This document shows, piece after piece, positions 17,048 to 55,121 of a stretch of DNA of 64,000 bases. Within the stretch, counting starts at the first letter, position 1. Every line of letters starts with the position of its first letter. A model generated the notes under the pieces. The model did not search any database and was not told where the DNA came from. It saw only the letters and a program-made list of their open reading frames with translations. This DNA is from a virus: positions 62,001 through 126,000 of IMG/VR virus record IMGVR_UViG_3300028800_000061; one strand, 5' to 3'. The translations under genes and the position numbers were made by a program.

Positions 17048-17428
17048 GCCGCACCGCATACAAGGTCATACCGCCGTAACTGAACGGTGACCGCAGGTCA
17101 GTAATCTCCTGACAGGCCGGAAACGTCCAGTTAGTAGCGGGCAGCCTCACATGCCAGCGCACCCCTGGGATGCACCCCCGGGACTGCGCTTCGAGCCGCC
17201 ACCCTGATGACACCAGGACAGGACCCTTGACCGGCCACAATAACGCCCCGACTCCAGTAGCGGAACCACCAACCCCGCAATGGTCCCAATCCGCACAGCA
17301 ACAACAAGCTGGCCTCGACGCACTGGTGGACACCGCGGTCGGTGCCGCGCTGACCCGCCCGTTCGCCTCAATCACTTTGCCGGCATCGAATCCAGGGTCA
17401 CGCCGGCGTAGAAACCAGGAGACATCTC
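17048..17428 (+). other. Gene-poor stretch before the polysaccharide genes
   Basis: The GT2 frame stays open backwards to 17170 without a stop. Codons from TTG 17227 to about 17390 (Pro/Gln-rich, then GLDALVDTAVGAALTRPFAS) look partly coding, with GGACAGGA upstream. This could be a small separate gene or an extended N-terminus of the synthase, but coding quality drops after 17390. I cannot decide. Confidence 0.35.
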
Positions 17429-17548
17429 GTGCGCGCGTTCCTGCCCACCCTCATGATGATCACGCTCGGGTCGGTGGCTGTGACGGCGATAGTCGTGGTG
17501 CTGGCCCGGCACACATGGCGCCGCGGCAAATCACTCCGGGAGCCCTGA
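17429..17548 (+). CDS. 39-aa membrane peptide
   Basis: GTG 17429 follows AGGAGA at ideal spacing. The peptide has one membrane helix (LMMITLGSVAVTAIVVVLA) and a basic tail (RHTWRRGKSLREP). It overlaps the GT2 start at 17515 in another frame. Possibly a small subunit or regulator of the synthase; function unknown. Confidence 0.5.
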   Translation: MRAFLPTLMMITLGSVAVTAIVVVLARHTWRRGKSLREP

Positions 17549-18948
17549 ACGCCCACTACAACATCCCGGTCTGCTCCCTGCGTCGACGGGAGGCCCGCGG
17601 CATCATCCTGACGTCGATCCTTCTCGCAGGCATGGGAGTTCGCTTCGGGTTCCTGGTCGCCTCGTACCCTGCGTTCTGGCCGCTAGAGGCTGTCTGGCTG
17701 GTGCCGCTCGCCAGCATGGCATTCCAGTGGACGGTGTCATGGCGTGACCGGCCCGTGGCTCCTGATCCCCGGGTGGAGCGCTGGCTCGCGCGTCTCAACG
17801 TCACGGTCAACATTCCTGTCTACAACGAGGACCCCGCGCTCCTTGACCGATGCTTGTTCGCGCTCATCAACCAGTCCAGGCCACCTCAGAGAATCGACGT
17901 GGTCGATGATGGCTCGAAACTCGACTACACCCTCCTGCGATCCCATTGGGAACGGCAGTGGCCAGGTGGCCCTGAAATCCGGTGGTTCCGCCAAGCAAAC
18001 GCCGGGAAGAAGCATGCGCAATCCCTGACGTTCGCCAGCGCTCCCAACGCCGACGTCTTCGTGATCATCGACTCAGATACCTGCCTTGACCACCGGGCGC
18101 TAGAGGAAGGGCTGCGGCCGTTCGCCAACCGCAGCGTCGCCTCGGTGGCAGGCATCGAGCTCGCGATGAACGCGGCCAAGAACTGGCTCACCAGGACTGT
18201 CAGCGTCCGCGCCCTGTTTTTCCAGATGCTCCCCTGCGCCGCGCAATCGGCAGTAGGTGACGTGCTCATCAACAGGGGTGCGTTCTTCCTGATCCGGGCT
18301 TCGGTTGTCCGAGAGTATCTGCGGGCATACCTGGACGAGACGTTCCTTGGCCGGCCGATAAAGCTCGGCGATGACGCTGCGCTCACCCTGTTCGCCCGGG
18401 CGAGTGGCCGGACCGTGCAGCAGTCCACCTCGTTCGGCCTCACCATGTACCCAGAGACCCTCTCGCACCACTTGCGGCAGTGGACTAGGTGGATGCGCGG
18501 CTCCACAATCCGGACCGTGTGGCGGCTCCGGTATCTCTCCCCGCTGACTTTCGGCTGGTGGTTCAGCGTGCTGGGGGTCTACTCGCTCTGCATGTCTACA
18601 GCTTTCCCGGTGATGCTCACCGTCATGTGGCCGAACTCCGAGCGGGCTATCGAGTACGTGATCGCGGTCATGATCCTCTGGGGTTACGTTTACGGCCTGC
18701 GGTCCTTGTCGATCCGCCGCAGCGACCAGACCTTGGCCTACCAGATCGGATCCTTGCTGGCTTATCCGTCAGTGCTCCTATGGGGACTCTTTGTGCTGCG
18801 CCCACTCCGGTTCTACGGCACGTGCACATTCCTCAAGCAGAACTGGGTGACGCGCGTCAACGGCGCTGAGATCGTCTTGGCTCCCCAGGCGCCAGAGCCT
18901 CACGCCGCCGGCGCACCGGAAGCGGCCACAGCCGGCGTTGCCCCATGA
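17515..18948 (+). CDS. GT2 polysaccharide synthase, hyaluronan-synthase-like
   Basis: A 477-aa membrane glycosyltransferase. Two N-terminal membrane helices (about 29-75), then the GT2 domain: NIPVYNED (99-106), VVDDGS, IDSDT (the metal-binding DxD-like site), GDDAALT, and QWTRWMRGS, the processive QxxRW motif. Three or four membrane helices follow. This order matches hyaluronan, chitin and cellulose-type synthases, closest in layout to HasA/NodC. ATG 17515 gives the usual length. Its stop overlaps the GH26 gene (ATGA). It likely makes and exports a surface polysaccharide; the sugar cannot be told from sequence. Confidence 0.85.
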   Translation: MAPRQITPGALNAHYNIPVCSLRRREARGIILTSILLAGMGVRFGFLVASYPAFWPLEAVWLVPLASMAFQWTVSWRDRPVAPDPRVERWLARLNVTVNIPVYNEDPALLDRCLFALINQSRPPQRIDVVDDGSKLDYTLLRSHWERQWPGGPEIRWFRQANAGKKHAQSLTFASAPNADVFVIIDSDTCLDHRALEEGLRPFANRSVASVAGIELAMNAAKNWLTRTVSVRALFFQMLPCAAQSAVGDVLINRGAFFLIRASVVREYLRAYLDETFLGRPIKLGDDAALTLFARASGRTVQQSTSFGLTMYPETLSHHLRQWTRWMRGSTIRTVWRLRYLSPLTFGWWFSVLGVYSLCMSTAFPVMLTVMWPNSERAIEYVIAVMILWGYVYGLRSLSIRRSDQTLAYQIGSLLAYPSVLLWGLFVLRPLRFYGTCTFLKQNWVTRVNGAEIVLAPQAPEPHAAGAPEAATAGVAP

Positions 18949-19910
18949 AGCGGCGCAGCGTAGGAGCCGCCACGGTGATCGTGATCCCTGCCGCGCTGCT
19001 AGGGGTGTTCGCCGCGCTGGTAGTCGCACATCATGTGACCCAGCCGGGCATCTATACCGCACCGGCGCCTGGCACTCCCGTTCACGCCACCGCAGCCCAA
19101 GGGCGATACGTAGGCGTCTATGAGCCCGGCTCTCCAGGCTCCTACGCGCCAGTTCGGGCATTCGAGGCGACATCTGGCGTCAGGCCCAACCTTGCGCTCT
19201 ACTACAGCAGTTGGTGGGAGCCGTTCCGTTTGCAGTTCGCTAAGGCTGCCTACACGAACGGCGCCATGCCGTTCGTGCAGATGATCCCCCATGGCCGGGG
19301 CGTGTCCGTGGACAGGGTTGCCCAAGGTCAGTACGACGGATACCTGCGGACCTTCGCCGAGCAGGTCAGGCGGTACGGTCATCCGGTCGTTCTGGGCTTC
19401 GCCGCCGAAGCCAACGGGTCCTGGTACAACTGGGGCTTCAAGCATCTCTCACCGAAGGTGTGGATCGCAGCGTGGCGGCACGTAGTGACCGTCTTCCGGG
19501 AGCAGGGCGCTGACAACGTCACCTGGCTGTGGACCATAAACCGCAGCGGGAAGCGCACTGGCCCGGTCCGCGACTGGTGGCCCGGCTCCACATACGTCAA
19601 CTGGATAGGCATCGACGGCTACCTCGAGGAACCGCCGTCTACATTCAGCGGCGTGTTCGCGCCGACCATCGCCCAAGTCCGCCAGTTCAGTAACGACCCC
19701 ATACTGCTCGCCGAAACGGCAGTCGGCCCGCTCGCGGACCCAGCAGGGAAGATCCCCGGGATGTTCGACAGCATCCGGGCCGATCACCTGCTCGGGCTGG
19801 TCTGGTTCGACAAGGCCCAGCACAACGGTGTCTACCACCAGGACTGGCGACTAGAGGATGATCCGCCAGCACTCGCCGTCTTCCGGAAGGCTGCCAATAA
19901 CTTCAAATAA
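18945..19910 (+). CDS. GH26-like secreted glycoside hydrolase
   Basis: A 321-aa protein with an N-terminal signal anchor (about residues 8-30). The catalytic domain has the GH26 layout: FAAEANGSWYNWG with the acid/base Glu at about 155, and PILLAETAVG with the nucleophile Glu at about 257. GH26 enzymes cut beta-mannans and related beta-glucans. Translational coupling to the GT2 synthase suggests it trims or releases the polymer made by that enzyme, outside the membrane. Confidence 0.8.
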   Translation: MKRRSVGAATVIVIPAALLGVFAALVVAHHVTQPGIYTAPAPGTPVHATAAQGRYVGVYEPGSPGSYAPVRAFEATSGVRPNLALYYSSWWEPFRLQFAKAAYTNGAMPFVQMIPHGRGVSVDRVAQGQYDGYLRTFAEQVRRYGHPVVLGFAAEANGSWYNWGFKHLSPKVWIAAWRHVVTVFREQGADNVTWLWTINRSGKRTGPVRDWWPGSTYVNWIGIDGYLEEPPSTFSGVFAPTIAQVRQFSNDPILLAETAVGPLADPAGKIPGMFDSIRADHLLGLVWFDKAQHNGVYHQDWRLEDDPPALAVFRKAANNFK

Positions 19911-20098
19911 CCGGGACCAGGCCGCGCCCTGGCAGGAATTCAGTCATACGGCCCCTTTGGGCTTGTTAGGTCCAATGTGCCGCCGAATGACCCAGCGAAT
20001 CCCTGTAGCAGGCGGTATGGCGCTATTCTTTGACCGCCCGCAAGGTGTAACAGGTGCGATGCAGTGAATGGTCTCACGGGGCAGGGGGTGAGCATTCC

Positions 20099-21598
20099 GT
20101 GACCGTGGCAACGGTAACTCAGGCGTACAAGTACGAGCTGGACCCAACCCCCTCACAGGCGCGGATGTTCGCCTCCCATGCTGGTGGGGCCAGGTTCGCG
20201 TACAACTGGGGTATCGCCACGATCATTGCCGCACTGGATGCGCGGCAAGCTGAGAAGGACGCGGGCGCCGAGCCGACCGTTCCGGTGCCCGCCCACTTCG
20301 AGTTGTGCAAGATGTGGACGGTGTGGAAGGACACCGCCGAGTGGACCGACCGCGCTACCGGGAATGTCACTGATGGTGTGGGGTGGGTCGGGGAGAACTT
20401 CGTCGGCACGTACCAGGCGGCGTTGCGTGATGCGGCCGGCGCATGGAAAGCGTTCTTCGCGTCCCGTTCGGGGAAGCGGAAAGGCCGGCGGGTCGGCCGG
20501 CCCCGTTTCCGATCGAAAGGAAAGGCCCGGGAGTCCTTCCAGGTCCACGGCGCCGTGTTCCGGCTGGCGCCCGGGCCTTCGGCCAAGTACCCGGGCACAC
20601 GGCGGGTCCGCGCGCACACACCAGCGCCGATGGCCTCGTACATAATGCTGCCGAAGATCGGCCCGGTCCGCTCGCACGAGTCGACACGGAAACTGCGCCG
20701 CAGGATTGACAACGGCACCGCGAGGATTGTCCGCGGCACCGTAGCGAAAAACGCCGCAGGCCGGTGGCACATCGCGATCACCGCCGAGGTGCAACGGGAC
20801 GTGCGGCTGAAGCCGTCTGCCCGGCAGCTGGCGGGCGGCATCATCGGTGTCGACTTGGGTGTGCGGGACACGATCACTTTGTCCACCGGGGAGTCTGTGA
20901 AGAACCCAGCTCACCTTGAGCGCTCGCTGCGCCGGCTGGCGGCCGCGCAGCAAACTGTCGCCCGGCGTACCAGGATCGGCCGGCCGTCCTCGGCGCGGCG
21001 GTTGAAAGCTGTCGAGCGGGTCGGCCGGATCCACACCCGGGTCAGTAATCTCCGGCAGGATTACCTGCACAACCTGTCCACCCGGCTGATCCACGAGCAT
21101 GCTGGCATCGGGGTGGAAGGTTTCGACCTGCAGCAAGTTGCAGCCCGCGGCGGCAGGAGCGTGCCCCGGCGGGTGCGACAGGTGCGGAACAGGCTCCTGG
21201 CCGGATCCGCACTCGGAATGTTCCGCTGGCAACTGCAATCGAAAAGCGCCTGGTACGGGTGCCAGGTGCTGGTCACCGGCGCGCAAGCACCGTCGGGCAG
21301 GACATGCTCCCGGTGCGGGACGGCAAAAGCCACGCCGATCCCGCCCCATCTGGAGCTGTTCCGGTGCCCGCAGTGCGGCCACGTCCAGGATCGGCGGCTT
21401 AACACTGCCCTGGTTCTGGCGCAGTTCGCGCGTGAAACGAAAACGACGTCCGGGACTGGCTCGGAGTCGCTAAACGCCCGTGGAGAGGATGTAAGCCCCG
21501 GGCCCGTCCGCAAGGGCAGGACCGGGCGATCCTCGTTGAAGCGGGAAGCCCGCCCCAGGGGGCAACCCTCGGGTAAGACGGGCACCCCCAGCACGTAA
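20099..21598 (+). CDS. tnpB: TnpB RNA-guided nuclease (IS200/IS605 or IS607 group)
   Basis: A 499-aa protein. N-terminal QAYKYELDPTPSQARMFASH is the usual TnpB start. RuvC residues are all present: GVDLGVRD (Asp about 252), VEGFDL (Glu about 340), DRRLNTA (Asp about 431). The zinc finger CSRCG...CPQCG is intact. TnpB proteins are RNA-guided DNA nucleases that help keep their transposon. No TnpA transposase is adjacent, so this is a stand-alone copy. GTG 20099 was chosen for the GGGGG site and the canonical N-terminus. Confidence 0.9.
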   Translation: MTVATVTQAYKYELDPTPSQARMFASHAGGARFAYNWGIATIIAALDARQAEKDAGAEPTVPVPAHFELCKMWTVWKDTAEWTDRATGNVTDGVGWVGENFVGTYQAALRDAAGAWKAFFASRSGKRKGRRVGRPRFRSKGKARESFQVHGAVFRLAPGPSAKYPGTRRVRAHTPAPMASYIMLPKIGPVRSHESTRKLRRRIDNGTARIVRGTVAKNAAGRWHIAITAEVQRDVRLKPSARQLAGGIIGVDLGVRDTITLSTGESVKNPAHLERSLRRLAAAQQTVARRTRIGRPSSARRLKAVERVGRIHTRVSNLRQDYLHNLSTRLIHEHAGIGVEGFDLQQVAARGGRSVPRRVRQVRNRLLAGSALGMFRWQLQSKSAWYGCQVLVTGAQAPSGRTCSRCGTAKATPIPPHLELFRCPQCGHVQDRRLNTALVLAQFARETKTTSGTGSESLNARGEDVSPGPVRKGRTGRSSLKREARPRGQPSGKTGTPST

Positions 21599-21954
21599 GG
21601 GCTGGGCGTCCCCAACCACCTGCCGAAAAGCAGGCAGCACAACTCAACAGAGGCAAGCGCAGACGTTCGACCGGTGGGCGAGGGGAGGCTCGCGAATCCC
21701 CTGCTGGCTACTGCTGATGTCCGGGACGAGGGGCCTAGCGCAGGTAACGTCCCATGCCGGCCATGCTGGGCGAGAGGGAGATCACCAGTCACGGGGGTGA
21801 GAGGTGTAGCAGTGGTGCCCCGCGTGGCCCGGGCCGCTCACACGGAGGGGATGCGGGGAAGTGAACGACTTGCCTGGTACCGGGATGAGGGCATCGGCAC
21901 ATTGCTGGGGCTGAGAGCAGTGGCAGCAGGCCGGCGGCGAGAGCAGTAGAGACA
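21599..21954 (+). mobile_element. Probable TnpB right flank / omega-RNA region
   Basis: This stretch follows tnpB and has several short hairpin arms (GGGGAGGCTCGCGAATCCCC near 21683; GGGACG...CGTCCC near 21721-21753). In TnpB elements the guide RNA scaffold lies at the 3' end of the gene and runs to the right end. A 91-codon open frame here (21674-21949) is probably not a protein. The exact element ends were not found. Confidence 0.4.
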
Positions 21955-22005
21955 CAAAAAAGGCCGCCCCTGCTACCCGGCACGAAGCCAGGTAGCAGGG
22001 GCGGC
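21955..22005 (-). terminator. Strong intrinsic terminator of the late operon
   Basis: On the minus strand, a 15-bp perfect stem (21991-22005 with 21963-21977) is followed by seven T. It lies 23 bases after the last late gene and is the clearest factor-independent terminator in the window. Confidence 0.9.
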
Positions 22006-22027
22006 AGAGAGTAAGCGGTGCCTGTGG

Positions 22028-22411
22028 TCAGCTGGTAGCCGACTCCGGTGGTGGGATGACGCTAGGCGGGTTCAGCTTGGCCACAGGCGTGATGGCTTGA
22101 CGGAGCACCAAGGACAGCACCAAGGACAACGCCGGCACCGCGGTGCCGATCTGATCCGCTGTCAGGTGCAAACCAAACGCCGCCGCTGCTGTGGCGATCG
22201 TGGCCACCGCACCGGTCACCACGGGAACGCTCGCCGGCCTGGCCGCGGCCGCCGCGATGAGAGCAAGAACGGCCGTGGCCGCAGTGGTCACCGCACCGGT
22301 TTGGGTGGCCGTCAGGTGCAGGCCAAACGCGACAGCGGCAGCGATCACACTGTTGACACCGCCGACGATAACCGCCGGCTCGTTTCGGATCTCGGTGAGT
22401 AGTTTGTTCAC
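22028..22411 (-). CDS. Membrane protein with an internal duplication (holin candidate)
   Basis: A 127-aa protein, last of the late operon. Two related halves repeat AFGLHLTA(T/D)Q, each followed by an Ala/Leu/Val-rich membrane segment. Small hydrophobic proteins in this position, next to peptidase and lysozyme genes, are often holins. GTG 22411 has the GGAGGC start context shared by several late genes. Holin is an inference from position and hydrophobicity. Confidence 0.65.
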   Translation of the reverse strand: MNKLLTEIRNEPAVIVGGVNSVIAAAVAFGLHLTATQTGAVTTAATAVLALIAAAAARPASVPVVTGAVATIATAAAAFGLHLTADQIGTAVPALSLVLSLVLRQAITPVAKLNPPSVIPPPESATS

Positions 22412-22424
22412 ATGCCTCCGGGGA

Positions 22425-23300
22425 TCAGATGTGGAGTTGCCGGAAATCGCACCAGTGACCTAGCGCGGCGAACGTGGACAAGTGCGCCCGGCCATCACCA
22501 TCCGCTCCCCACGACGTCGACCAGGAGTTGCGGAACCGGATGGTGGTGCGTTGCAGATCGAGGCGGCCGAGCAGATCAAACTGGACGTTCTCGATCGTGT
22601 GCCAGTACGTTTCGTGGCCACCGACGACACCGCCGGCGATATCCCCGGCCAGATGGGTCAGTGATCCGTCGCCGTCGATGAACCCGTCATCGTCTGGGGT
22701 CATCCACGCTGCCAGCCACGGCTGGCCGACGATCAGCCCGCCGTCCTGCATCAGGGACACGATGTTCTCGGCGCCGTGCGCGATTTTGTGGCCGGCGATC
22801 ATCGCTGTGGTTTCGAGCATCTGGCAGACAGCGACACCGCTGGATCCGCAGTCCTCCGGCGGCCACTCTGATGCCGGGTTGCCGGTTTCCATCGTGAGCG
22901 CGTGGTACAGCTTGATGGCAAACTTCTCATCTGCTGCCGGGTCCTGGGTGATGCCGTATTCGGTCAGTTTCGCTTCCGGCAGAATCCCGGCCAGCGCCGC
23001 GGTGGTCGCGTTAGCGACACACGATCCGAGAGAGTCTGCTTTCGGCGCACCGGGCACCAGCTCAGATGTGTCGATGCCCTGGGCGATCAGGTCCTCTTGA
23101 TCCAGGACTGGGATGCGTGGCGGGTGCGCGACCGGTTTGAGTTCGCTTTCACCGCGGTGGAAATGCAGCCTGGCGAGCGACGATGGCGGCTCGGCGACAT
23201 GCAAACGGCCGAACTTGGTTGCGGACAGCGTTAACAGCCCCTTCCTGGGGATGAGGGCAGGTTCGGGTGGCGCGGGGAATGAGGGGAAGGCGGACAGCAC
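22425..23300 (-). CDS. Papain-like (C1) cysteine peptidase
   Basis: About 270-291 aa. The papain triad is visible: SLGSCVANATTAALAG with the active Cys, GGHETYWHT with the His, and FRNSWSTSWG with the Asn, in that order. GTG 23300 and CTG 23237 (behind AGGAAGGGG) are both possible starts; the longer frame upstream is not convincing. C1 peptidases appear in some phage lysis or tail cassettes, where they may cut peptidoglycan cross-bridges or host proteins. Here it sits between a holin candidate and a GH25 lysozyme. Confidence 0.75.
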   Translation of the reverse strand: MLSAFPSFPAPPEPALIPRKGLLTLSATKFGRLHVAEPPSSLARLHFHRGESELKPVAHPPRIPVLDQEDLIAQGIDTSELVPGAPKADSLGSCVANATTAALAGILPEAKLTEYGITQDPAADEKFAIKLYHALTMETGNPASEWPPEDCGSSGVAVCQMLETTAMIAGHKIAHGAENIVSLMQDGGLIVGQPWLAAWMTPDDDGFIDGDGSLTHLAGDIAGGVVGGHETYWHTIENVQFDLLGRLDLQRTTIRFRNSWSTSWGADGDGRAHLSTFAALGHWCDFRQLHI

Positions 23301-23422
23301 CCTGGCCCCCGGGCGCGCTAAAGGGGGTGGGGGGTAGATGTCGCGGTGCGGGCCGCCGGGGATGAGAGGACCAACGAGACTGCGAGCGGGCAATCGGGGA
23401 CGAGAGGCCGCAGGGAGGTGGG

Positions 23423-23644
23423 TCAGGCGCTGATCGTGTACGACGTTCCAGCGCCGCCGGCTGCACCGATGCTGTAGTTGCTGCTGTACCAGGTGACAGC
23501 CGGGTAGGTGTGCGGCCACGGGTGCACGCAGGTGTGGTGATGGCAGCCGTGGCATGCCGGCTGGCCGGCCAGTGCAGTACGCAAGTTCGCGATCTCCTCG
23601 CGCAGGGCTGCGACTTCGGCGGTCAGGTCCTGCTTTCCGCTCAT
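23423..23644 (-). CDS. Hypothetical protein with coiled coil, 73 aa
   Basis: Residues 5-27 form a heptad coiled coil (LTAEVAALREEIANLRTAL), followed by CHGCHHHTCVHPW, a Cys/His cluster able to bind metal, and a Gly/Ser-rich tail. Between the peptidase and endolysin genes. Small trimeric fibre-like or structural proteins look similar; not recognised. Confidence 0.6.
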   Translation of the reverse strand: MSGKQDLTAEVAALREEIANLRTALAGQPACHGCHHHTCVHPWPHTYPAVTWYSSNYSIGAAGGAGTSYTISA

Positions 23645-23664
23645 GATGTTTCCGTTTTCCTTTC

Positions 23665-24597
23665 TCAGATCAGCGCAACAGCACCGGCGACATCGGAATC
23701 GCTGGTGACAGCGAGGGTGATGAACGCGCTTGTCTTCCCCGCTGGAATGGCCACGTCCTGATTGCCGCGGCTGGCGAACACAAGCTCGTAGCCGGGTTTG
23801 CCATCGACGAAATCCACATCTGCCTTGCCGGGGGCGTTCAGGCAGACCCGGACACCTTTGGCGGCTGGGATGATCGGCACCGGGGTCGGTGTTCCGTGCG
23901 GCAAAAGAGGGAGCATGGGGTCCTCCATGGTCGTGATGAGCGATGGCCCGGCTGGTTTCGGGACGGGCACTGGTTTCGGGTGCGGCTTAGGTGCAGGTTT
24001 GCCGATCACGGCCCGCATGCCGGTGAGCGTGGTGAAGTTCGCTACATCCCGGTCGATAGGCCCGGTGATCGTGTGCTGGTGGATGGTCCACGCTTTCCAC
24101 GGCACTGGCACCCGCGGGAACCCGGGCGCGCTCGACGGGTCGGAAACCCACAGCGGGAACCGGCTCAGGTGCCGGCCGTAGGCCGCGGCGTAGCTGAGGT
24201 TGACGTACAGCACCGGTGCCCGGCCGGTGCGCTCTTGCAGCAACGCGAGCACTTCCGCTGCCCACCCGGCCACCTGGGCGCCTGTGCGGCCATCGGTGGT
24301 TTCCAGGTCGAGGCACACACCGTCGTGGTCCGTGAAACCGATACGGGTGAGCTCGGCGAGGAACAAGCCGGCAGATGCGGCCGCGCCGACTGCCGGGTGC
24401 CCGAACATGTACCCGATCCGGCCTTTGCTGTTGGCTCCGAGCCACGCCCAGTCGGCGCCCGCGTCAGGGTTGGTGTACGGGCCGGCCACTGATAGCTCGG
24501 TGATTTTCACGCCAGCCCAGGAGATCGCGCCGGCCTCAGCGCGCCACGCTCCTGGCGGCCCTTGGTAGCTTGATACGTCGACGCCGGGTAGGGTCAC
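23665..24597 (-). CDS. GH25 lysozyme, endolysin
   Basis: A 310-aa protein. GVDVSSYQG at residues 4-12 and CLDLETTDG carry the GH25 acidic residues; YMFGHP, PLWVSDP and IDRDVANF complete the fold (about residues 1-200). GH25 muramidases cut the glycan strand of peptidoglycan. A Pro/Lys linker leads to a C-terminal domain of about 85 residues that may bind the wall. GTG 24597 lies in the GGAGGCGTGTGA start context and overlaps the upstream stop; the longer frame upstream is a shadow. Confidence 0.85.
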   Translation of the reverse strand: MTLPGVDVSSYQGPPGAWRAEAGAISWAGVKITELSVAGPYTNPDAGADWAWLGANSKGRIGYMFGHPAVGAAASAGLFLAELTRIGFTDHDGVCLDLETTDGRTGAQVAGWAAEVLALLQERTGRAPVLYVNLSYAAAYGRHLSRFPLWVSDPSSAPGFPRVPVPWKAWTIHQHTITGPIDRDVANFTTLTGMRAVIGKPAPKPHPKPVPVPKPAGPSLITTMEDPMLPLLPHGTPTPVPIIPAAKGVRVCLNAPGKADVDFVDGKPGYELVFASRGNQDVAIPAGKTSAFITLAVTSDSDVAGAVALI

Positions 24598-25049
24598 ACG
24601 CCTCCGTTGAGGGTGTTGAGGCTGGACACATGGATTTCGCCGGGTAGCGGGCCCGCCTCGGCGGCCAGTCGTGTCCCGGCGGGTGTGAGTTGCCACAAGC
24701 AGATACGGCGCCCGCGGGCGGCGGGCGCGGCCGACCGGATTGTGCCGGTGGCGGCGGCCAGGCCGGCCCGGGCGAGCGCTTGCAGCGCGTTGGAGATCAG
24801 CGGCCGGGCGCGGGCGGGAAGGACTGGGCGCAATGTGTCAGCGGAGAATTGCTGCCCGTGCCGGGCCCGGACGATGATGTGCCGGGCGGTCCGGGGTATA
24901 TCCCACGACCAGGTGACATCCTGCAAGCCGAGCGCGTCGAGCAAAAGCTGGGCGTCCTCGAGGTCGGCGGCTTCACGCAGGATCGTCCAGGCGGCCTCGG
25001 TGGCGGCGGCGTTGTCGTCTGCGTCCAGTATCTGCGCGGCTAGGGTCAC
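24594..25049 (-). CDS. Hypothetical protein with winged-helix-like C-terminus
   Basis: A 151-aa, Ala/Leu-rich helical protein. The C-terminal segment (PLISNALQALARAGL, then ICLWQLTPAGTRLAAEAG) resembles the recognition helix and wing of MarR/ArsR-type proteins. Stops and starts overlap both neighbours. A DNA-binding role is possible but unproven. Confidence 0.6.
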   Translation of the reverse strand: MTLAAQILDADDNAAATEAAWTILREAADLEDAQLLLDALGLQDVTWSWDIPRTARHIIVRARHGQQFSADTLRPVLPARARPLISNALQALARAGLAAATGTIRSAAPAARGRRICLWQLTPAGTRLAAEAGPLPGEIHVSSLNTLNGGV

Positions 25050-25444
25050 TCTTCTCCTTCGGCTGGCAGGCCCACCGGGGGCCGGGCAGCGAGCATGGTT
25101 TTGATCTCATCGACAGTGGTTGCGATGTGGGTGAGGGCCTGGTGCTGCGCGTCGGATTGCGCATCGGATGAACGCTGCGTCTTGTTGCCCACGTACACGA
25201 GCAGTGGCAGCGCGAACAGCTGGATCCACCCGGAGGAGTAGAAGAAGAACCGGGATTGCACGCTGGCGGGGAACAACTGGACGAGCAGAGGTGCGGCGAT
25301 GAACGCCCACACGGTCCAGATCAACCCGAACAAGATGGCCAGATGGGTGGCGGCCCAGTCGTTGAACCGGCCGACCGCGTTTCTTTCCTTGGCCAGCAGC
25401 TCGGCCGGGTGGATTACCTGGTCATGGGTGCGGCGTTGGGTCAC
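25046..25444 (-). CDS. Two-helix membrane protein (holin candidate)
   Basis: A 132-aa protein with two membrane helices (about 33-54 and 70-87) joined by a short loop, and a hydrophilic helical tail. The layout NDWAATHLAILFGLIWTVWA is like small DUF1003-type or holin proteins. GTG 25444 uses the GGAGGCATGTGA context. With the nearby endolysin it could be a second holin or lysis regulator. Confidence 0.6.
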   Translation of the reverse strand: MTQRRTHDQVIHPAELLAKERNAVGRFNDWAATHLAILFGLIWTVWAFIAAPLLVQLFPASVQSRFFFYSSGWIQLFALPLLVYVGNKTQRSSDAQSDAQHQALTHIATTVDEIKTMLAARPPVGLPAEGEE

Positions 25445-25459
25445 ATGCCTCCGGGTGGG

Positions 25460-25705
25460 TCACAGGATGTCGCCGATGGTTATGTGCACCCAGTCCGGGC
25501 CGGCTTCCTCGGCGGTAAACGGCAGCCCGCGTGCCTCAGCGACCCGCATCACCATCTCGGCGTTATCCGAGTGCAAAGTCGCGATCACGAACGGCTCGTA
25601 TTGCAACCGGGTCCACAGCATGCCGATCTCCACACCACGCCGGAACTCGGTGCTGTCCGTGTCGAACGGCAGCAGCAGCCCGAACTCGTGCTCGCTGCCG
25701 CTCAT
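25460..25705 (-). CDS. Hypothetical protein, 81 aa
   Basis: Acidic alpha/beta protein (FVIATLHSDNAEMVMRVAEA). ATG 25705 overlaps the stop of the tail protein gene (ATGA). Not recognised. Confidence 0.6.
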   Translation of the reverse strand: MSGSEHEFGLLLPFDTDSTEFRRGVEIGMLWTRLQYEPFVIATLHSDNAEMVMRVAEARGLPFTAEEAGPDWVHITIGDIL

Positions 25706-26331
25706 GCGGCCGCGAGGATCTGGTAGGCGACAATGCTCGCATCCGCGCTCGATGTGGACTCGATGGTGAACGACACCCCGGGTGCGCGTGCTGCGACATA
25801 CAGCGCACCGGGTGTGCCGGAGGGTGTTTGAGCAGTCAGGAAGATCGGTGTACCGGTAGCTACCGCGGCGGTAGCCACCGTGGCGGTCCCGCCTGTGAGA
25901 GTCACGAACCCTTGCTCGGACGGCAACGACACCGCACCGGAAACACCGTTGACGGAGATCACGTACAGGCCGGGCTGGGCCGGGATGAGCGGCACCGGCC
26001 CCAGCCGGCTGATATCGACCGTGGAGCCCCAGGATGACGGCAGGTATGCGTCGAACGCGATCGCGGCACCGGGGACATTCACTTGCACGCTGTACGCCCA
26101 CCCGGCAGGCAGCAGATCGGCGTTATCGGTGCACGGGAGAACCACCGAGAACTGGCCGGTGGAATGTGACACCGCGGCGACAATCGGGTTGGCGGACAGG
26201 ACTGCCTGACCGGTCATATCGGTGAGCGGCACCGAGGGCGCGAACAGCACGGTCCCGCCGAGCGGCGTCCCTGCTGCGGTCAGGTAGGTGCCGGTGACCG
26301 TGATCGTGGTCAGGCCGACTGGAAGGCTCAC
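25702..26331 (-). CDS. Minor tail or fibre protein
   Basis: A 209-aa beta-rich protein. The last 70 residues (IFLTAQTPSGTPGALYVAAR followed by SFTIESTSSADASIVAYQIL) match a small C-terminal domain widespread on actinophage tail and fibre proteins. The N-terminal part (TVTGTYLTAAGTPLGGTVLF) is Ig- or carbohydrate-binding-like. Likely at the tail tip. Confidence 0.7.
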   Translation of the reverse strand: MSLPVGLTTITVTGTYLTAAGTPLGGTVLFAPSVPLTDMTGQAVLSANPIVAAVSHSTGQFSVVLPCTDNADLLPAGWAYSVQVNVPGAAIAFDAYLPSSWGSTVDISRLGPVPLIPAQPGLYVISVNGVSGAVSLPSEQGFVTLTGGTATVATAAVATGTPIFLTAQTPSGTPGALYVAARAPGVSFTIESTSSADASIVAYQILAAA

Positions 26332-34199: not shown

Positions 34200-37100
34200 C
34201 TATTTGGTTGCGAGCGTGAGACCGTTAGTACCGTTCCTGCGGTTGTAACGCAGGGTGTACTTCTGGTCAGTAGCCTGAAGATTGCTGCCGGTCGGCCATT
34301 GCATCTTCAACGTCAAATTCAGTGTCTGCTGGGAAGATGTGACACCGAACCCGCCCGCTCCTTGCGATGCGGCCAGGGCCACGCCTGTGGCCGGGTGCAC
34401 AGTCCCAGGTGCAGTTGCGCTGCTGAGCGCCCTCATGGCAGCAGTCACATGCGGCAGCCCGGCGATGATTCCTTGCGCGAGTCCTTGTGACACCATCATC
34501 CCGTGCTGGTACATCACCGTCGATGGCGACTTGATCCCCAGATCTTTCTTGATCTGGCTGACCATGCCTTTAGCGATCTTCGTCATTTCCTTCGTGATCG
34601 CTTTTTCTTGCGCTTCCAGCCCGGATAGGAAACCCTTCCCGGCCTGGGCGCCCGAGTCATACATGGCGTTAGCGGCGGTTTGCCCAAGCGACTTAGACGC
34701 CGAAGTGATACCAGACTCGGCTTTGTTGATCGCCTTAATGTTCCCCGGGACCTGCAATAGCGCCTTCGCGATGGCCAGGCCCTGCACGGGCCCGGCCTGG
34801 ATGATCTGGTTGATGTAATCCTTGTTCAGCCCCAGTTTCGACAGTTGGCCGATCGCCGACTTGAACTGGTTTATCTGGGACAGGTCGGCCTGCAAGTTGG
34901 CCAGAATGTTCTGCGAGGTGATCGGCCCGCTACCCGCTGCCGACACGAGATCAAACGTGCCAGCGACGCTACTGGCCGTGTTCGTGGCGAACGTTTTCGC
35001 CTTGGAAATCGTTGACATGATCGCGGATCGTTTGGTGGCGAGGGCTTGCAGTTTGTTGTTGTCAGCCTCGATCCACTTGGTTACGTTGCTCTCCGTCTGA
35101 GAGGAGATATCGCCCGCGTCAAACGCTTCCTTGATGTAGGTGACCAGTTTCCCGGCTGCCGATTTGACTTTCGACGCAGTTCCCTCAAGTCCCGCGACTA
35201 TGCCGTTGCCGATTTCAACCGCAATGTTCTGCATGACCTTCGACGGTGAGCTGATCCCGAGCACGCTCTTGATTGACGATATGGCCGCGCTGCCGATACT
35301 GCCTGCCGCGTCACGTACGGCCCCGAGGGACGCGGTGATTCCGTGAACGAAACCCATGATCAGGTTCTTGGCCAGGTCGTACAGCAACGTGACCGCACCG
35401 TTGAAAATGGTCCGCATCACGTTGAGGATGCCGTGGATCTCATCCGAGGTCAGTTTTTTCAGGTCGGTCCACGCTTTCGCCCAGTGCCCGGTGATGATGT
35501 CCAGGAACAGTGCGATGGCGTCGCGGATTATGGCCAGCTCGGCGCGGATTAGCGCGGCGACAGTATCCCAGACTAGTTTAACCGTGTCGCGTATCAGGCC
35601 CCACGCGATAGTCCATGCGGCTTTAATCACTGCCAGGTCGATTTTGATCGTCGCGATTATCTCGGCGAGATACGTCTTGACGATGAAACTTACAACCGCC
35701 CAGACGACCCGTGCGACCTCTTCGATTTCCTTGTGGTTCTGCTCCCACCACACCCTGAATGCTGCAATCTGCTGCTTCACAAACACAAGCGGGCCGTGAA
35801 CGAACCAGTCGATCACGGCACCCGCGGCGCGCATCGCCACCGCCCAGGCGGATTTGAAAGCGTTCGCGACATCATGAACGATGTCACGGACCAGTTTGCT
35901 GTGCTCATACAGTTCGTACAGGCCAAGCGCGAGTGCGCCGATCGCAATGATCGCGACACCGACGGGGTTAGCTGAGAGAACTGCGCCAAGGCCCTCCACC
36001 GAGGCGGTGACCAGCTCCACCCCCACCGCGATAGCGATAACCGCCCCAGCGAACGCCGCCATCTTCTCGTGGTGGGAAATGAACTCCATGAACTTGTCAA
36101 CCGCCCGCACGACTTTGGTGAAGATGGGCAGCAGTTTCGTCCCGAAAGTGATGACCAGGTTCTCGACATCGGCGAGGAACTGAGTCCAGGCGAAGTGCGC
36201 TGTCTTCTCCGTCTCAGACCACGACTTGCCGTATCCTGATACCGCCTTGCCTATGCCTTCGTACTTGGTTCTGATGTTGTCCAGATTCGACATCAGGGAC
36301 AGCATGGCTTTGTCGGACCGGCCGCCGCCGAACAGTTTCGCCATGACCTGCGAGGCCTGGGCTGCTGACAGCCCGGACGCTTTGAAGGCTTTCTCCATGT
36401 CCGACAACGCGATGTAGATGCCGTCAGGTTTCCGCAGATCCGTGGCGATCTTGTTGACTGTCAGCCCGTAGGAATTCATCACATCGGCCAGCGACTTGTT
36501 TTTCAACGTGATATTGTCGGTCGCCAGTCCAAGTGACCGCAGGAACGTGTTCGCCTCCTTCGACCCTGATGTGACCATGGAAAGCCCCATGGTCAACCGG
36601 GTTGAAGCTGTCTCCGCAGTGTTACCCCGGTCAGTCAGGTACGCCAAGGCCGCACCCATTGACCGGATCGAAATGCCCATGGCCGCGGCGGTAGGCGCCC
36701 AGTTCTTAATTGACTGGTTAAAGTTCTGGAAGCGCATGTCGCCCTGGCCGACGATCGCGTTCAGCAACCCGGCGGTCTTGGCGGCGTCACTGGTGTTCAG
36801 GTTGAACGCCTTCATCACCGATGACAGGGCGTACGTTGTGTCTTCCAGATCGGCGCCGTGGATCTGCGCGAGCTTGGCCGAGTTGGCGACAGTCGCAAGC
36901 GAGTTACTCAGACTCAGGCCAGCGCTAATTGGGTGGTAGAGAGCCGTCGCGATGGCTGTGCCAGATTCCCCAGTCTGGTATCCGATCTGGAGGATCTTCT
37001 GGGACAGTGCGGCCATGCTTATACCGGTCAAGTGCGCGGCGGTGTACAACTGGGTGACGGCAGCCTGAAACTTCATCGCTTTGTCGATGGAGTAACCCAC

Positions 37101-52206: not shown

Positions 52207-52653
52207 CCCATCGAGTACGCCAGTGAGTTGCCCTGCGGTGAGCCCACCCGCAACCGCAGCGAGAAGGGCTTGCTCCAGCCGTGTCACCCGCGTTGCCACC
52301 AGGCCGCCCACCCGCCGGTCACCCTCGTCAAGGATCGACTGCAGTGAGCTGTCCGGCGCGTCCAGGTCGATGCTGGTGATCTGGACGGCCGAGTTCCGGC
52401 CGAGCCGCCAGCCGTCCGCCCACAACTCCCGCATGATCCTGGTGAGCGCCACAGTTAGCGCTGCGGTAACCCCGGTTCGTTGCAGGTACCGTTTCGGGCC
52501 ACGCGGCCGCGCTGCTGCACCTGCCCCGTTGCCGCTAGCCAGCCACCCGGCAGCGAAATCGGCGGGCAAAACGCCCTGCAGTTCCCTGGCGAGCCGGCCA
52601 GCGTACTGGGCTGCTAGCTGCCGGTCCCGCTCCCACCCGGGCCAGTCAGGGCT
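51913..52653 (-). CDS. MuF-like capsid morphogenesis protein, -1 frame after portal
   Basis: C-terminal text TWSMSLAALAYYQQARIAAV, VGWATAGDATVCAVCDGNEA and PPAHPNCRCSLYP is the MuF signature. The frame is open from 52665, just past a TGA at 52668-52666, to the stop at 51913. There is no ATG or GTG before a TTG at 52569. The 28 codons before that TTG (DWPGWERDRQLAAQYAGRLA) also look like MuF. It is therefore probably made as an extension of the portal through -1 slippage, giving about 1069 aa. MuF proteins sit inside the head near the portal and may carry effectors. Confidence 0.8.
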   Translation of the reverse strand, partial: SPDWPGWERDRQLAAQYAGRLARELQGVLPADFAAGWLASGNGAGAAARPRGPKRYLQRTGVTAALTVALTRIMRELWADGWRLGRNSAVQITSIDLDAPDSSLQSILDEGDRRVGGLVATRVTRLEQALLAAVAGGLTAGQLTGVLDGLLGNEPAALVVTQTEVTWSMSLAALAYYQQARIAAVGWATAGDATVCAVCDGNEAAGLIPVGDEFPSGDDQPPAHPNCRCSLYPGDTGQSMMPADVI

Positions 52654-55121
52654 TTTGGGCTGCCATCATCCCCGCCACCCTTGTTGAGCTTGGCCCGGTT
52701 CATCGCCCCGTCCCACGGCCCGGTGTCCGTGCCCACAACACCGACCCATGCGAGGGTGCTTGTTTTGCCTGCCCGTTTGAGAGCGAGAGTCCGGTGCCAG
52801 CCGTCAGCGATCTCGTACTTCGCCTGGCCGGGTACTTTCACCAGCACGACCGGCGCGAGTTGCGTCCCGGCCCGGATGGATGCGGCGATCGCTTCTACTT
52901 TCGCCGGGTTGCGTGCACCGCCCGGGCGGCGGGCCATCTCGATCCGGGACAGTGCCACGGATACCGGCCCATGCCACCGTGCATCTTTGACCCACTCCAG
53001 CACGGCGGCCGGGTAGTGCCGTGCCAGGTACGCGTACACCTCATGTGTCAGATCGGCGTGGCTGGTCTGCGCCGCGATCTCTGCTGTGCTCTTGGTGCTC
53101 AGCATCGACCGGGCTACATCGCACACCTGATCGGCGGTCAAGCCCTTGCCCAGGTCCTCCTCGATGCTGGCGAGCAGTGCAGCGGGCAGATCTTGCGGCG
53201 CCCACCCGGTGACTGTGCCGCCTTTGCGCAGGTGATTGCGCAGCAGATCCAGTTCTCGCAGTTGCCCTTTCCTCGCGGAGGTTGGAGTGGCGTTCGCGGA
53301 GCCGACCGCACCGGAGCGCGCACCGGAGTGCGCCGGGGTGCCCCGGCCGGACTGGCTGACCGCGCCGCCGATTGCCCGCGGTGCCGGCTGCTGGGCGACC
53401 GTGGCGGGCCCCGCTGGTGGCGCCTGCTGCGGGGCGGTCGACGGGCCGCTTGTTCCTGCGATCTGCGCTGGATCCAGCGGTGCAGGTGTGGGCCGGGAGC
53501 CGGTGACCTGCGGTGCGGTCGGCGCACCAGCGAACGGGACGAAACCCTCGCGGACAGTCGCCCATCCAGGGTCGGAGGTGACAGGAAGGTTCCACGGGTC
53601 GCGGCCCAGCTCGACACGGGCCTCATCGACGGAGCACAATCCTGCGCTAATCTGCTCCACAAGAAGGGTTGTCAGAGTGGCGGCGTCTTCATCTTCTTCC
53701 AATCCTTCCCATTGCCACTCAAGGTCTTCCTGCCCGCACACATCTTGCAAGATCCTGTCGAATACCGCGGCCTTCAGCCACATTAGCAAGGGGACGGTTC
53801 CCTTGCGCTCCTGAATGTCCTGCCCGGCTTTCGCCATCTGGTTCGCCGCACCGACACTCTGGGTCGCGGAGACACGCGGTGAGATGCCCAGTTCCATGGG
53901 CATGACGGAGAACGCCATGCACACCTGGGTCATGATGATCTCATCGAACTGGTCGGCCAGGCTCGCGGGCTTCTGCGGGTCCACTTTCGACCCGCCTGGG
54001 AGAACAATGATTTTGTGCTTCCATGCTTGATCACCGGCAAGGGCATTCAGCGCGTCTTGAAGCTCCCGGATCTGCTGCGGGGTCATGTTCGTGTCACCCG
54101 GCGAAACGAACAGGCCAGGAATGGATCCCTCTTGGAAAAAGTTCAGCTGATACTGCTGCCGGTTCAACCCAGCCATGACCGGGATAATCGCCCGCTCAAT
54201 GGGCGCCTGACCGTACGGTGTCCACGTGCGGGCGGTGTACGGCAGGTACATCAGCTGATCGCCCCGGTACTCCGCGATGAGCCCGTCATCTGCGGTTTCC
54301 TCAACCAGCAGCGTCATCAGGTCCACACGCGGGACACCGTATTCGTATTGCTGATAGGCTGGGTTGGGCGGTGCTGGCACTCCGCCAAGCACATCCACCA
54401 GTGGCCGGATAAGTGTCCCGTCGATAAGATCTAGCGCGGCCACGTTTGATCCGAGCAGGCCCTTGTTCCGCACTTTCGACGGGTGCACGTACAGCGCCAG
54501 GGCGTCGGTAACGAACACTTCCTCAAGCAACGCGTCGAACCATGAGGAAAAATCGCCGTAGCGCGGATCGGGCTGGCGGAAGAACTTGACAGCCTGCGCC
54601 CTGCGCTCCGCGAAGTCGGCCATGCCGCTGTGCGAGCCCCGCAACGATTTCGCGGCGTCCCTTGTCAGGGCAATGTTCCACCCGACGCCACGCAACTCCG
54701 ATTTGCGCAATTCGATGCACGCACGGGCGACACTGTACAGGTCCGCGAGAGTCCGCAGAGTCTGGAAGTCGGCGAGCTTTCCAAGGCCTTCCGTGCCGGG
54801 CATGCCCATAGGCATGTCCCAGCCGATCGGGTACTGGAAGCGCCTTATCGGCGGCCTTTCCTCACCCGGTTCCGGAGTGTCAATCGGGACTGGCTCTATG
54901 GGGGCGAGCGGCCCGAACATGCCGGACAGGAATGTTCGCCAGTCTCGTGGCAGCCCGCCGTGCTGGCCGGCTGACCGGCCGGAGGTCCACTCGTTGTAAG
55001 AGGCAACGAGCGGGGACGGGCCCGGGCTGATCGACGGCGGTGTGACCGTGGCGAATCCGCCTGACCGGCCAGCGGCTGTCGCTTTCAGGGTGCGGGTGAT
55101 GGCGCGCAGGTCCGTGGGCAC
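52614..55121 (-). CDS. Portal protein with C-terminal ParB-like domain
   Basis: An 835-aa protein from GTG 55121. Residues about 100-530 form the siphovirus portal: LYSVARACIELRKSELRGVG, LALYVHPSKV, GLNRQQYQLNFFQEGSIPG, MPMELGISPRVSATQSVGAANQ. A Pro/Ala linker (530-600) leads to a helical part and a ParB/sulfiredoxin-like domain (about 730-805): SRIEMARRPGG, IADGWHRTLALKRAG. The end holds the slippery C CCA AAA. The portal forms the DNA channel at the capsid vertex. The extra ParB-like domain is unusual. Confidence 0.85.
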   Translation of the reverse strand: MPTDLRAITRTLKATAAGRSGGFATVTPPSISPGPSPLVASYNEWTSGRSAGQHGGLPRDWRTFLSGMFGPLAPIEPVPIDTPEPGEERPPIRRFQYPIGWDMPMGMPGTEGLGKLADFQTLRTLADLYSVARACIELRKSELRGVGWNIALTRDAAKSLRGSHSGMADFAERRAQAVKFFRQPDPRYGDFSSWFDALLEEVFVTDALALYVHPSKVRNKGLLGSNVAALDLIDGTLIRPLVDVLGGVPAPPNPAYQQYEYGVPRVDLMTLLVEETADDGLIAEYRGDQLMYLPYTARTWTPYGQAPIERAIIPVMAGLNRQQYQLNFFQEGSIPGLFVSPGDTNMTPQQIRELQDALNALAGDQAWKHKIIVLPGGSKVDPQKPASLADQFDEIIMTQVCMAFSVMPMELGISPRVSATQSVGAANQMAKAGQDIQERKGTVPLLMWLKAAVFDRILQDVCGQEDLEWQWEGLEEDEDAATLTTLLVEQISAGLCSVDEARVELGRDPWNLPVTSDPGWATVREGFVPFAGAPTAPQVTGSRPTPAPLDPAQIAGTSGPSTAPQQAPPAGPATVAQQPAPRAIGGAVSQSGRGTPAHSGARSGAVGSANATPTSARKGQLRELDLLRNHLRKGGTVTGWAPQDLPAALLASIEEDLGKGLTADQVCDVARSMLSTKSTAEIAAQTSHADLTHEVYAYLARHYPAAVLEWVKDARWHGPVSVALSRIEMARRPGGARNPAKVEAIAASIRAGTQLAPVVLVKVPGQAKYEIADGWHRTLALKRAGKTSTLAWVGVVGTDTGPWDGAMNRAKLNKGGGDDGSPKALTGPGGSGTGS
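52653..52659 (-). promoter_or_regulatory. Slippery heptamer C CCA AAA between portal and MuF
   Basis: Portal codons AGC CCA AAA GCC contain the same heptamer as the tail chaperone gene, in the same phase. Slipping back one base reads CCC AAA AGC CCT GAC, which is the MuF frame. The zero-frame portal ends 13 codons later at TAG (52614). Confidence 0.8.

Follow-up and report, generated by a model that had tools for sequence, protein, structure and literature searches.

Why should a tailed phage encode, side by side, an enzyme predicted to build a polysaccharide and another predicted to cut one? The question is raised by three genes on the plus strand of a 64,000-nucleotide stretch of DNA (hereafter, the window), which comprises bases 62001-126000 of the IMG/VR virus record IMGVR_UViG_3300028800_000061 (159,823 bp, 65.7 % GC). 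The three open reading frames of the original prediction are all found at 17429-19910. The first (17429-17548) starts with GTG, 6 nt after a Shine-Dalgarno-like AGGAGA (17417-17422), and encodes a micro-peptide of 39 aa (VRAFLPTLMMITLGSVAVTAIVVVLARHTWRRGKSLREP) with a single transmembrane (TM) segment and an RRGK tail. As had been predicted, it overlaps (by 34 nt) the start of the gene for a processive, hyaluronan-synthase-like GT2 polysaccharide synthase of 477 aa (17515-18948), for which ATG 17515 is the start codon, a 592-aa reading frame from 17170 being only the mechanical first start. The predicted ATGA overlap (18945-18948) between the synthase stop and the start of the 321-aa GH26 hydrolase gene (18945-19910) is likewise present. 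No Shine-Dalgarno of its own is seen ahead of the hydrolase gene, so that, given the ATGA overlap, its translation is probably coupled to that of the synthase. The same 4-nt overlap of GT2 and GH26 genes recurs in loci L023, L024, L025, L040, L045, L130 and L187, and also in L186, there with a GT2 of another kind; an apparent GT2-GH26 fusion in L024 (a 1033-aa open reading frame) was rejected as two genes in different frames. A promoter search found no sigma-70 promoter. Directly downstream of the cassette lies an IS607-type TnpB gene (20054-21598, plus strand), with an Rfam Transposase-2 RNA (RF03015; 21538-21610, plus strand) at its 3' end, and this adjoining element may be a trace of how the cargo arrived.

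The genomic context is that of a phage. The two ends of the record share a near-identical overlap of 150 bp, so the record is probably complete; it is a complete or nearly complete tailed phage genome of ~159.8 kb. PHROG scans of the record detected a terminase (7.9e-37), a portal protein (2.7e-48), a tape measure protein (6e-43) and an endolysin (9e-18), as well as a head-maturation protease, a DnaB-like helicase and ParA and ParB-like genes. A tyrosine integrase was identified with Pfam (1.4e-21), which supports a lysogenic phase; a search of the record for a serine recombinase was negative. Terminase, portal, tape measure, endolysin and integrase in one record are the signature of a temperate tailed phage and bear out the earlier designation of the locus as part of a phage element. 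The resemblance of the terminase to those of isolates is low and mixed. The GT2 family of the window synthase is overwhelmingly actinobacterial, and the nearest relative of the synthase (59 % identity) lies in a Streptosporangiaceae metagenome-assembled genome, on a contig of 3.5 kb. Because homologs of two window genes located beside the endolysin (22028-22411 and 22425-23300) are found on the same contig, the latter is itself probably a phage fragment. We infer from the sequences that the host is an actinomycete, that is, that the virus is an actinophage. Elsewhere in the record, the C-terminal residues 734-786 of the portal protein (window 52617-55121, minus strand) match ParB-like families. 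There are also four PAPS-reductase-like genes (record 35786-36838, 146508-147824, 147899-149227 and 149862-150662), two of them tandem paralogs (73 % DNA identity) and three near a ParB-like gene, possibly involved in DNA or tRNA sulfur modification. A 1707-aa DarB-like antirestriction/methyltransferase protein is encoded at record positions 20696-25819, and another DNA methyltransferase gene follows.

The identity of the synthase is indicated by Pfam and NCBIfam profiles, sequence alignment and structure modeling. It matches Pfam GT2 families above several cut-offs, including PF13632 (6.7e-16) and PF13641 (3.1e-14), and membrane helices flank its catalytic domain on both sides. The motifs DDG, DxD, GDD and QxxRW of class I hyaluronan synthases are present (VVDDGS; DSD, 186-188; GDD, 285-287; QWTRW, 322-326), and the WGTR position reads WVTR (444-447). 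A PDB profile search retrieved the Chlorella virus hyaluronan synthase first (2.8e-49) and Xenopus HAS1 next (9e-40), with hyaluronan synthases well ahead of chondroitin or chitin synthases. The nearest folds of the AF2 model (pLDDT 90.5) are again the Chlorella-virus and Xenopus hyaluronan synthases (Z 32.9-29), and the superposition on the chlorovirus enzyme CvHAS (Z 32.9, rmsd 3.3, 382 residues) identifies the membrane GT2 fold of hyaluronan synthases. Lys177, Arg341 and Arg348 of CvHAS, with roles in UDP-GlcA recognition and priming-loop contact (PMC12987647), correspond in a residue map to K165, R325 and R333 of the window synthase; the priming-loop Cys of CvHAS is replaced by Ile. The protein had been described as HasA/NodC-like: the family resemblance holds, with hyaluronan synthase as the best solved relative, but the enzyme is not a NodC (TIGR04242, 107.5 bits against a cut-off of 550). 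No Pfam match to PilZ, which would indicate c-di-GMP control, was obtained for the synthase; HAS-type systems need no such control.

The hydrolase matches PF02156 with 42.5 bits (gathering cut-off 20.2), and its AF2 model (pLDDT 85.9) combines an N-terminal hydrophobic helix (residues 15-27) with a (beta/alpha)8 domain. The best fold and profile match is CtLic26A, the GH26 lichenase of Clostridium thermocellum (PDB 2cip/2bv9; Z 34.1, 1.7 A over 259 residues, 29 % identity), whereas mannanases reach Z 24 or less; in the PDB profile search, too, CtLic26A entries come first (2e-53) and mannanases far behind. In an alignment with 17 relatives that are 27-45 % identical to the window protein, the catalytic residues Glu155 and Glu257 are invariant, and such conservation at this distance argues for an active enzyme. 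The His that usually, if not obligatorily, precedes the acid/base Glu in the GH26 family is replaced by Ala154 (among the relatives, by Ala in L039 and by Pro in several), and the substrate may therefore differ from that of every characterized GH26; as judged from sequence, the specificity is probably new. CtLic26A is a degradative plant-glucan enzyme, from which the window hydrolase differs both in this Ala and in its N-terminal membrane helix. The substrate of CtLic26A is a beta-1,3/1,4 glucan, and hyaluronan contains beta-1,3 and beta-1,4 linkages in alternation; this parallel is suggestive only. Several relatives carry an N-terminal lipobox where the window protein has the hydrophobic helix, and because of these features the enzyme is probably active while anchored to the external side of the membrane, at the site of chain exit. 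Thus, the earlier description of a secreted GH26 hydrolase is correct as to family and export, but membrane tethering is more probable than secretion.

The micro-peptide received no usable name from Pfam or NCBIfam. Almost all related synthase genes have a single-TM peptide with an RR-type tail encoded ahead of them. In a strict form (TM plus an aromatic-RR-type tail), such a peptide precedes 56 of the 124 GT2 genes and none of the 148 control genes. In most of the loci that lack GH26, the peptide contains LPxTG or LAxTG immediately ahead of the TM, so that the whole micro-protein resembles a bare sortase sorting signal. The window peptide is the counterpart of these LPxTG/LAxTG micro-peptides; it lacks an LPxTG-type motif and hence the mark of a sortase substrate, and no sortase was found in the record. 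The NCBIfam family NF058583 ('LAXTG motif-containing small protein') does not match the window peptide, and the relatives tested score below its cut-off. Among the 99 tree loci with a peptide, the motif is present in 71 of the 86 GH26-free loci and in none of the 13 GH26-linked ones (Fisher 6e-9). On the tree this amounts to three to five independent contrasts, 3 pairs of them on supported branches, and a sign test is not significant; with so few independent events, the mutual exclusion of LPxTG and GH26 is a pattern and not a proven link. Stand-alone micro-proteins of this kind (for example, L009:8681-8851, L042:5675-5839 and L062:3583-3747, with about 70 other loci) immediately precede the HAS-like GT2 genes of Streptomyces phages, prophages, plasmids and Saccharibacteria. 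In one Pseudonocardia plasmid, a LAYTG micro-peptide and its GT2 have a divergent gene for a class E sortase (L013:4855-5580) just upstream, and sortase matches were obtained near the GT2 of L060 and L120 as well.

How widespread is the cassette? The combined GT2-seeded and GH26-first scans, with the near-identical contig described below left out, revealed 12 further IMG/VR viral contigs that encode a GT2 of the window family and a GH26. In the GH26-first scan, a GT2 is encoded immediately upstream in 17 of 23 viral loci, 5 of these GT2s belonging to other subfamilies. The original prediction considered a synthase-hydrolase pair in an actinophage unusual; the phage-borne pair is real, but recurrence in many viral contigs makes it less unusual than was thought. 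In the GT2 tree, the window synthase belongs to a well-supported clade whose ten members are all linked to GH26, seven being from viral contigs, and GH26 linkage is enriched among viral loci (13/46 vs 4/65, p 0.002), a comparison that is subject to query bias. When the window terminase was sought in 16 partner records, L045 was found to share it at 63 % identity, one further record gave a weak match and none was detected in the rest, five of which have a recognizable terminase of another kind. With a single close terminase relative among the partners, we conclude that the cassette moves between phages. A tyrosine integrase is encoded in 4 of 13 partner records, and relatives are also present on chromosomes and plasmids. 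A protein of 490-600 aa that is absent from the window recurs upstream of the micro-peptide and GT2 (L024:4275-5846, L025:4440-5921, L045:4323-5840, L174:2553-4358, L177:2544-4304 and L181); one member is weakly PMT_2-like, and this is maybe a further glycan gene.

Conservation of the synthase motifs and catalytic Glu residues, recurrence of the 4-nt overlap and linkage of the TM peptide against controls all argue that the trio is more than a chance assembly. A processive GT2 and an extracytoplasmic hydrolase in one operon, recognized here from sequence only, are the hallmark of synthase-dependent exopolysaccharide systems, and the original proposal, a polysaccharide synthase coupled to a hydrolase in a phage, is strongly supported by the gene overlap, the intact motifs and the phage genome around them. 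The reading we favor, and consider reasonably probable, is that the three genes, translated together, form a cargo (moron) operon with which a temperate phage directs synthesis of a glycan, its trimming by GH26 and its display on, or release from, the cell. The fold, motifs and membrane topology of the GT2 suggest that it would assemble a beta-linked polysaccharide from cytosolic UDP-sugars and export it through a channel that the enzyme itself forms in the membrane, like hyaluronan synthase. The near-constant linkage of the 39-aa peptide points to an accessory subunit of the synthase, with the conserved cytosolic RRGK tail as the probable contact. The GH26, exported and held outside the membrane by its N-terminal helix (several relatives use a lipobox instead), would cut the nascent chain and thereby set its length or release it, like the cognate hydrolases of other synthase-dependent systems. 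As a result, infected or lysogenic cells would bear on their surface, or release, a glycan specified by the phage; its likeliest benefits would be receptor masking against competing phages or altered surface adhesion. Coating of the lysogen, blocking of other phages and a change of adhesion, as first suggested, are plausible hypotheses.

Which polymer would be made bears on the main competitor of this reading, namely that the product is hyaluronan proper, a GlcA-GlcNAc polymer assembled from host UDP-GlcA as chloroviruses do, and that the GH26 cuts hyaluronan. UDP-glucose dehydrogenase (PF03721), whose gene often but not always accompanies that of a class I hyaluronan synthase, is absent from the record, so hyaluronan itself cannot be claimed and any uronic acid would come from the host. 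Relatives show other arrangements: consecutive genes for GT2, polysaccharide deacetylase, GH26 and UDPGlc-dehydrogenase on a 185-kb phage contig, GT2-GH26-dehydrogenase on a Curtobacterium plasmid and peptide-GT2-dehydrogenase on two Streptomyces plasmids. These gene sets hint at an acidic amino-sugar polymer, and the dehydrogenase is found near the GT2 in 21 of 68 GH26-free cellular or plasmid loci. That frequency, the hyaluronan synthase as best solved relative and the three residues shared with CvHAS speak for hyaluronan; against it stand the missing dehydrogenase and the WVTR in place of WGTR. Residues equivalent to the three are, moreover, common to other processive GT2 enzymes, and K165, R325 and R333 are not diagnostic of hyaluronan synthases. 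GH26 enzymes are also not known to cut hyaluronan, and we regard this outcome as rather unlikely. A broader scenario, speculative and quite doubtful in our view, embraces the micro-peptide relatives: an undescribed type of surface-glycan machine of actinomycetes and their phages, in which a HAS-like synthase nearly always comes with a micro-peptide that, in most lineages, would be a stand-alone LPxTG/LAxTG signal. A sortase of the host would use this signal to anchor the polymer (or the synthase complex) to the wall. In the phage-rich lineage, loss of the motif and gain of GH26 would have turned a wall-anchored polymer into a trimmed or released one that serves as a phage-specified coat.

The position of the cassette, adjoining the lysis region with the endolysin at 23665-24597, and the presence of some viral GH26 domains in very long tail-like reading frames without GT2 (L192-L195) would fit a role in exit or entry, the GH26 degrading host capsule or biofilm glycan for progeny release or receptor exposure, the GT2 modifying host wall glycan, and the two being neighbors for other reasons. 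This is improbable, however, because the coupled overlap is kept in distant loci, the cassette lies on the strand opposite to the late genes, and the GH26, which has an N-terminal TM or lipobox, is a protein by itself and no domain of a tail protein. Digestion of plant or soil beta-glucan or mannan by GH26 for the benefit of the lysogen, although in line with a lichenase as the nearest characterized enzyme and with relatives in soil actinomycetes, leaves the fixed partner synthase unexplained; no transporter or further catabolic gene was recognized in the cassette, and we find such a nutritional role very improbable. To the idea that the cassette is host DNA, acquired by chance or joined to the phage contig by mis-assembly, we give next to no credence, even with relatives on chromosomes and plasmids and the IS607-type TnpB element next door. 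A second IMG/VR contig, 99.87 % identical over 14 kb that include the cassette, the lysis genes and some further late genes, repeats the linkage with structural and lysis genes across the junctions, other phages carry such cassettes, and the GT2+GH26 clade is dominated by phages. The original prediction named clear membership in a host locus as one finding that would speak against it; the genes lie inside the phage genome, and a host-locus origin is rejected by the linkage unless both contigs share one chimera.

The favored moron operon has partial counterparts. CvHAS of chlorovirus PBCV-1 (PDB 7sp6/9yq5), a class I hyaluronan synthase, is likewise a virus-encoded, membrane-integrated processive GT2, and the comparison with it made in the original prediction is apt at the level of fold and motifs, although the two are only 19 % identical and CvHAS comes from a virus of eukaryotic algae. 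The chlorovirus gene coats infected cells with polysaccharide; it has no hydrolase in its operon and a viral UDPGlc-dehydrogenase as partner, in contrast to the coupled GH26 and micro-peptide, without dehydrogenase, seen here. Further counterparts are gp78-gp79 of Streptomyces phage Kromp and their relatives in Streptomyces prophages and plasmids, with a GT2 39 % identical to the window synthase and, ahead of it and overlapping it, a single-TM peptide that likewise has an RRGK tail; unlike in the window, this peptide has LASTG before the TM and GH26 is missing. In phage Caudovirales GX15bay and Curtobacterium plasmid pTCL, a GT2 overlaps or adjoins a membrane-anchored GH26, as in the window, but the GT2 is of another subfamily and no micro-peptide was recognized; pTCL has in addition a UDPGlc-dehydrogenase and GX15bay a second GH26. 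A run of further glycosyltransferase genes beside GT2-GH26-GH26 in GX15bay (L010:13126-18249) makes clear that some phages carry still larger glycan loci. Among cellular systems, cellulose BcsA-BcsZ and clostridial CcsA-CcsZ combine a processive GT2 and an extracytoplasmic hydrolase in one operon (for CcsZ, see PMC10374906). Their hydrolases are GH8/GH5 enzymes, not GH26, and c-di-GMP control and the co-polymerase parts of cellulose systems are not seen in the window cassette. Viral polysaccharide synthases and synthase-hydrolase pairs are thus both already known, from chloroviruses and cellulose systems, respectively. The open-access literature searched yielded no account of a phage GT2-GH26 cassette, of an LAxTG-peptide system or of a link between such a micro-peptide and polysaccharide synthesis, and the best reading of the sequences is that of a new, mobile, phage-borne variant of the synthase-dependent exopolysaccharide system.

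What a virus gains from making its host produce polysaccharide has been a standing question since the discovery of the chlorovirus hyaluronan synthase. Five ideas have been put forward for the benefit of the chlorovirus polysaccharide, and superinfection was considered and doubted; co-infection experiments had no consistent outcome, and the ideal test would be adding, swapping or removing the genes (PMC5408694). Here, the same kind of synthase comes as a compact three-gene cassette in temperate phages that are mostly unrelated to each other, and because simpler relatives reside in Streptomyces phages amenable to laboratory culture, gain and loss of the genes are testable in lysogens. In addition, the cassette supplies a GH26 whose specificity is probably new, together with a family of micro-peptides that adjoin synthases.
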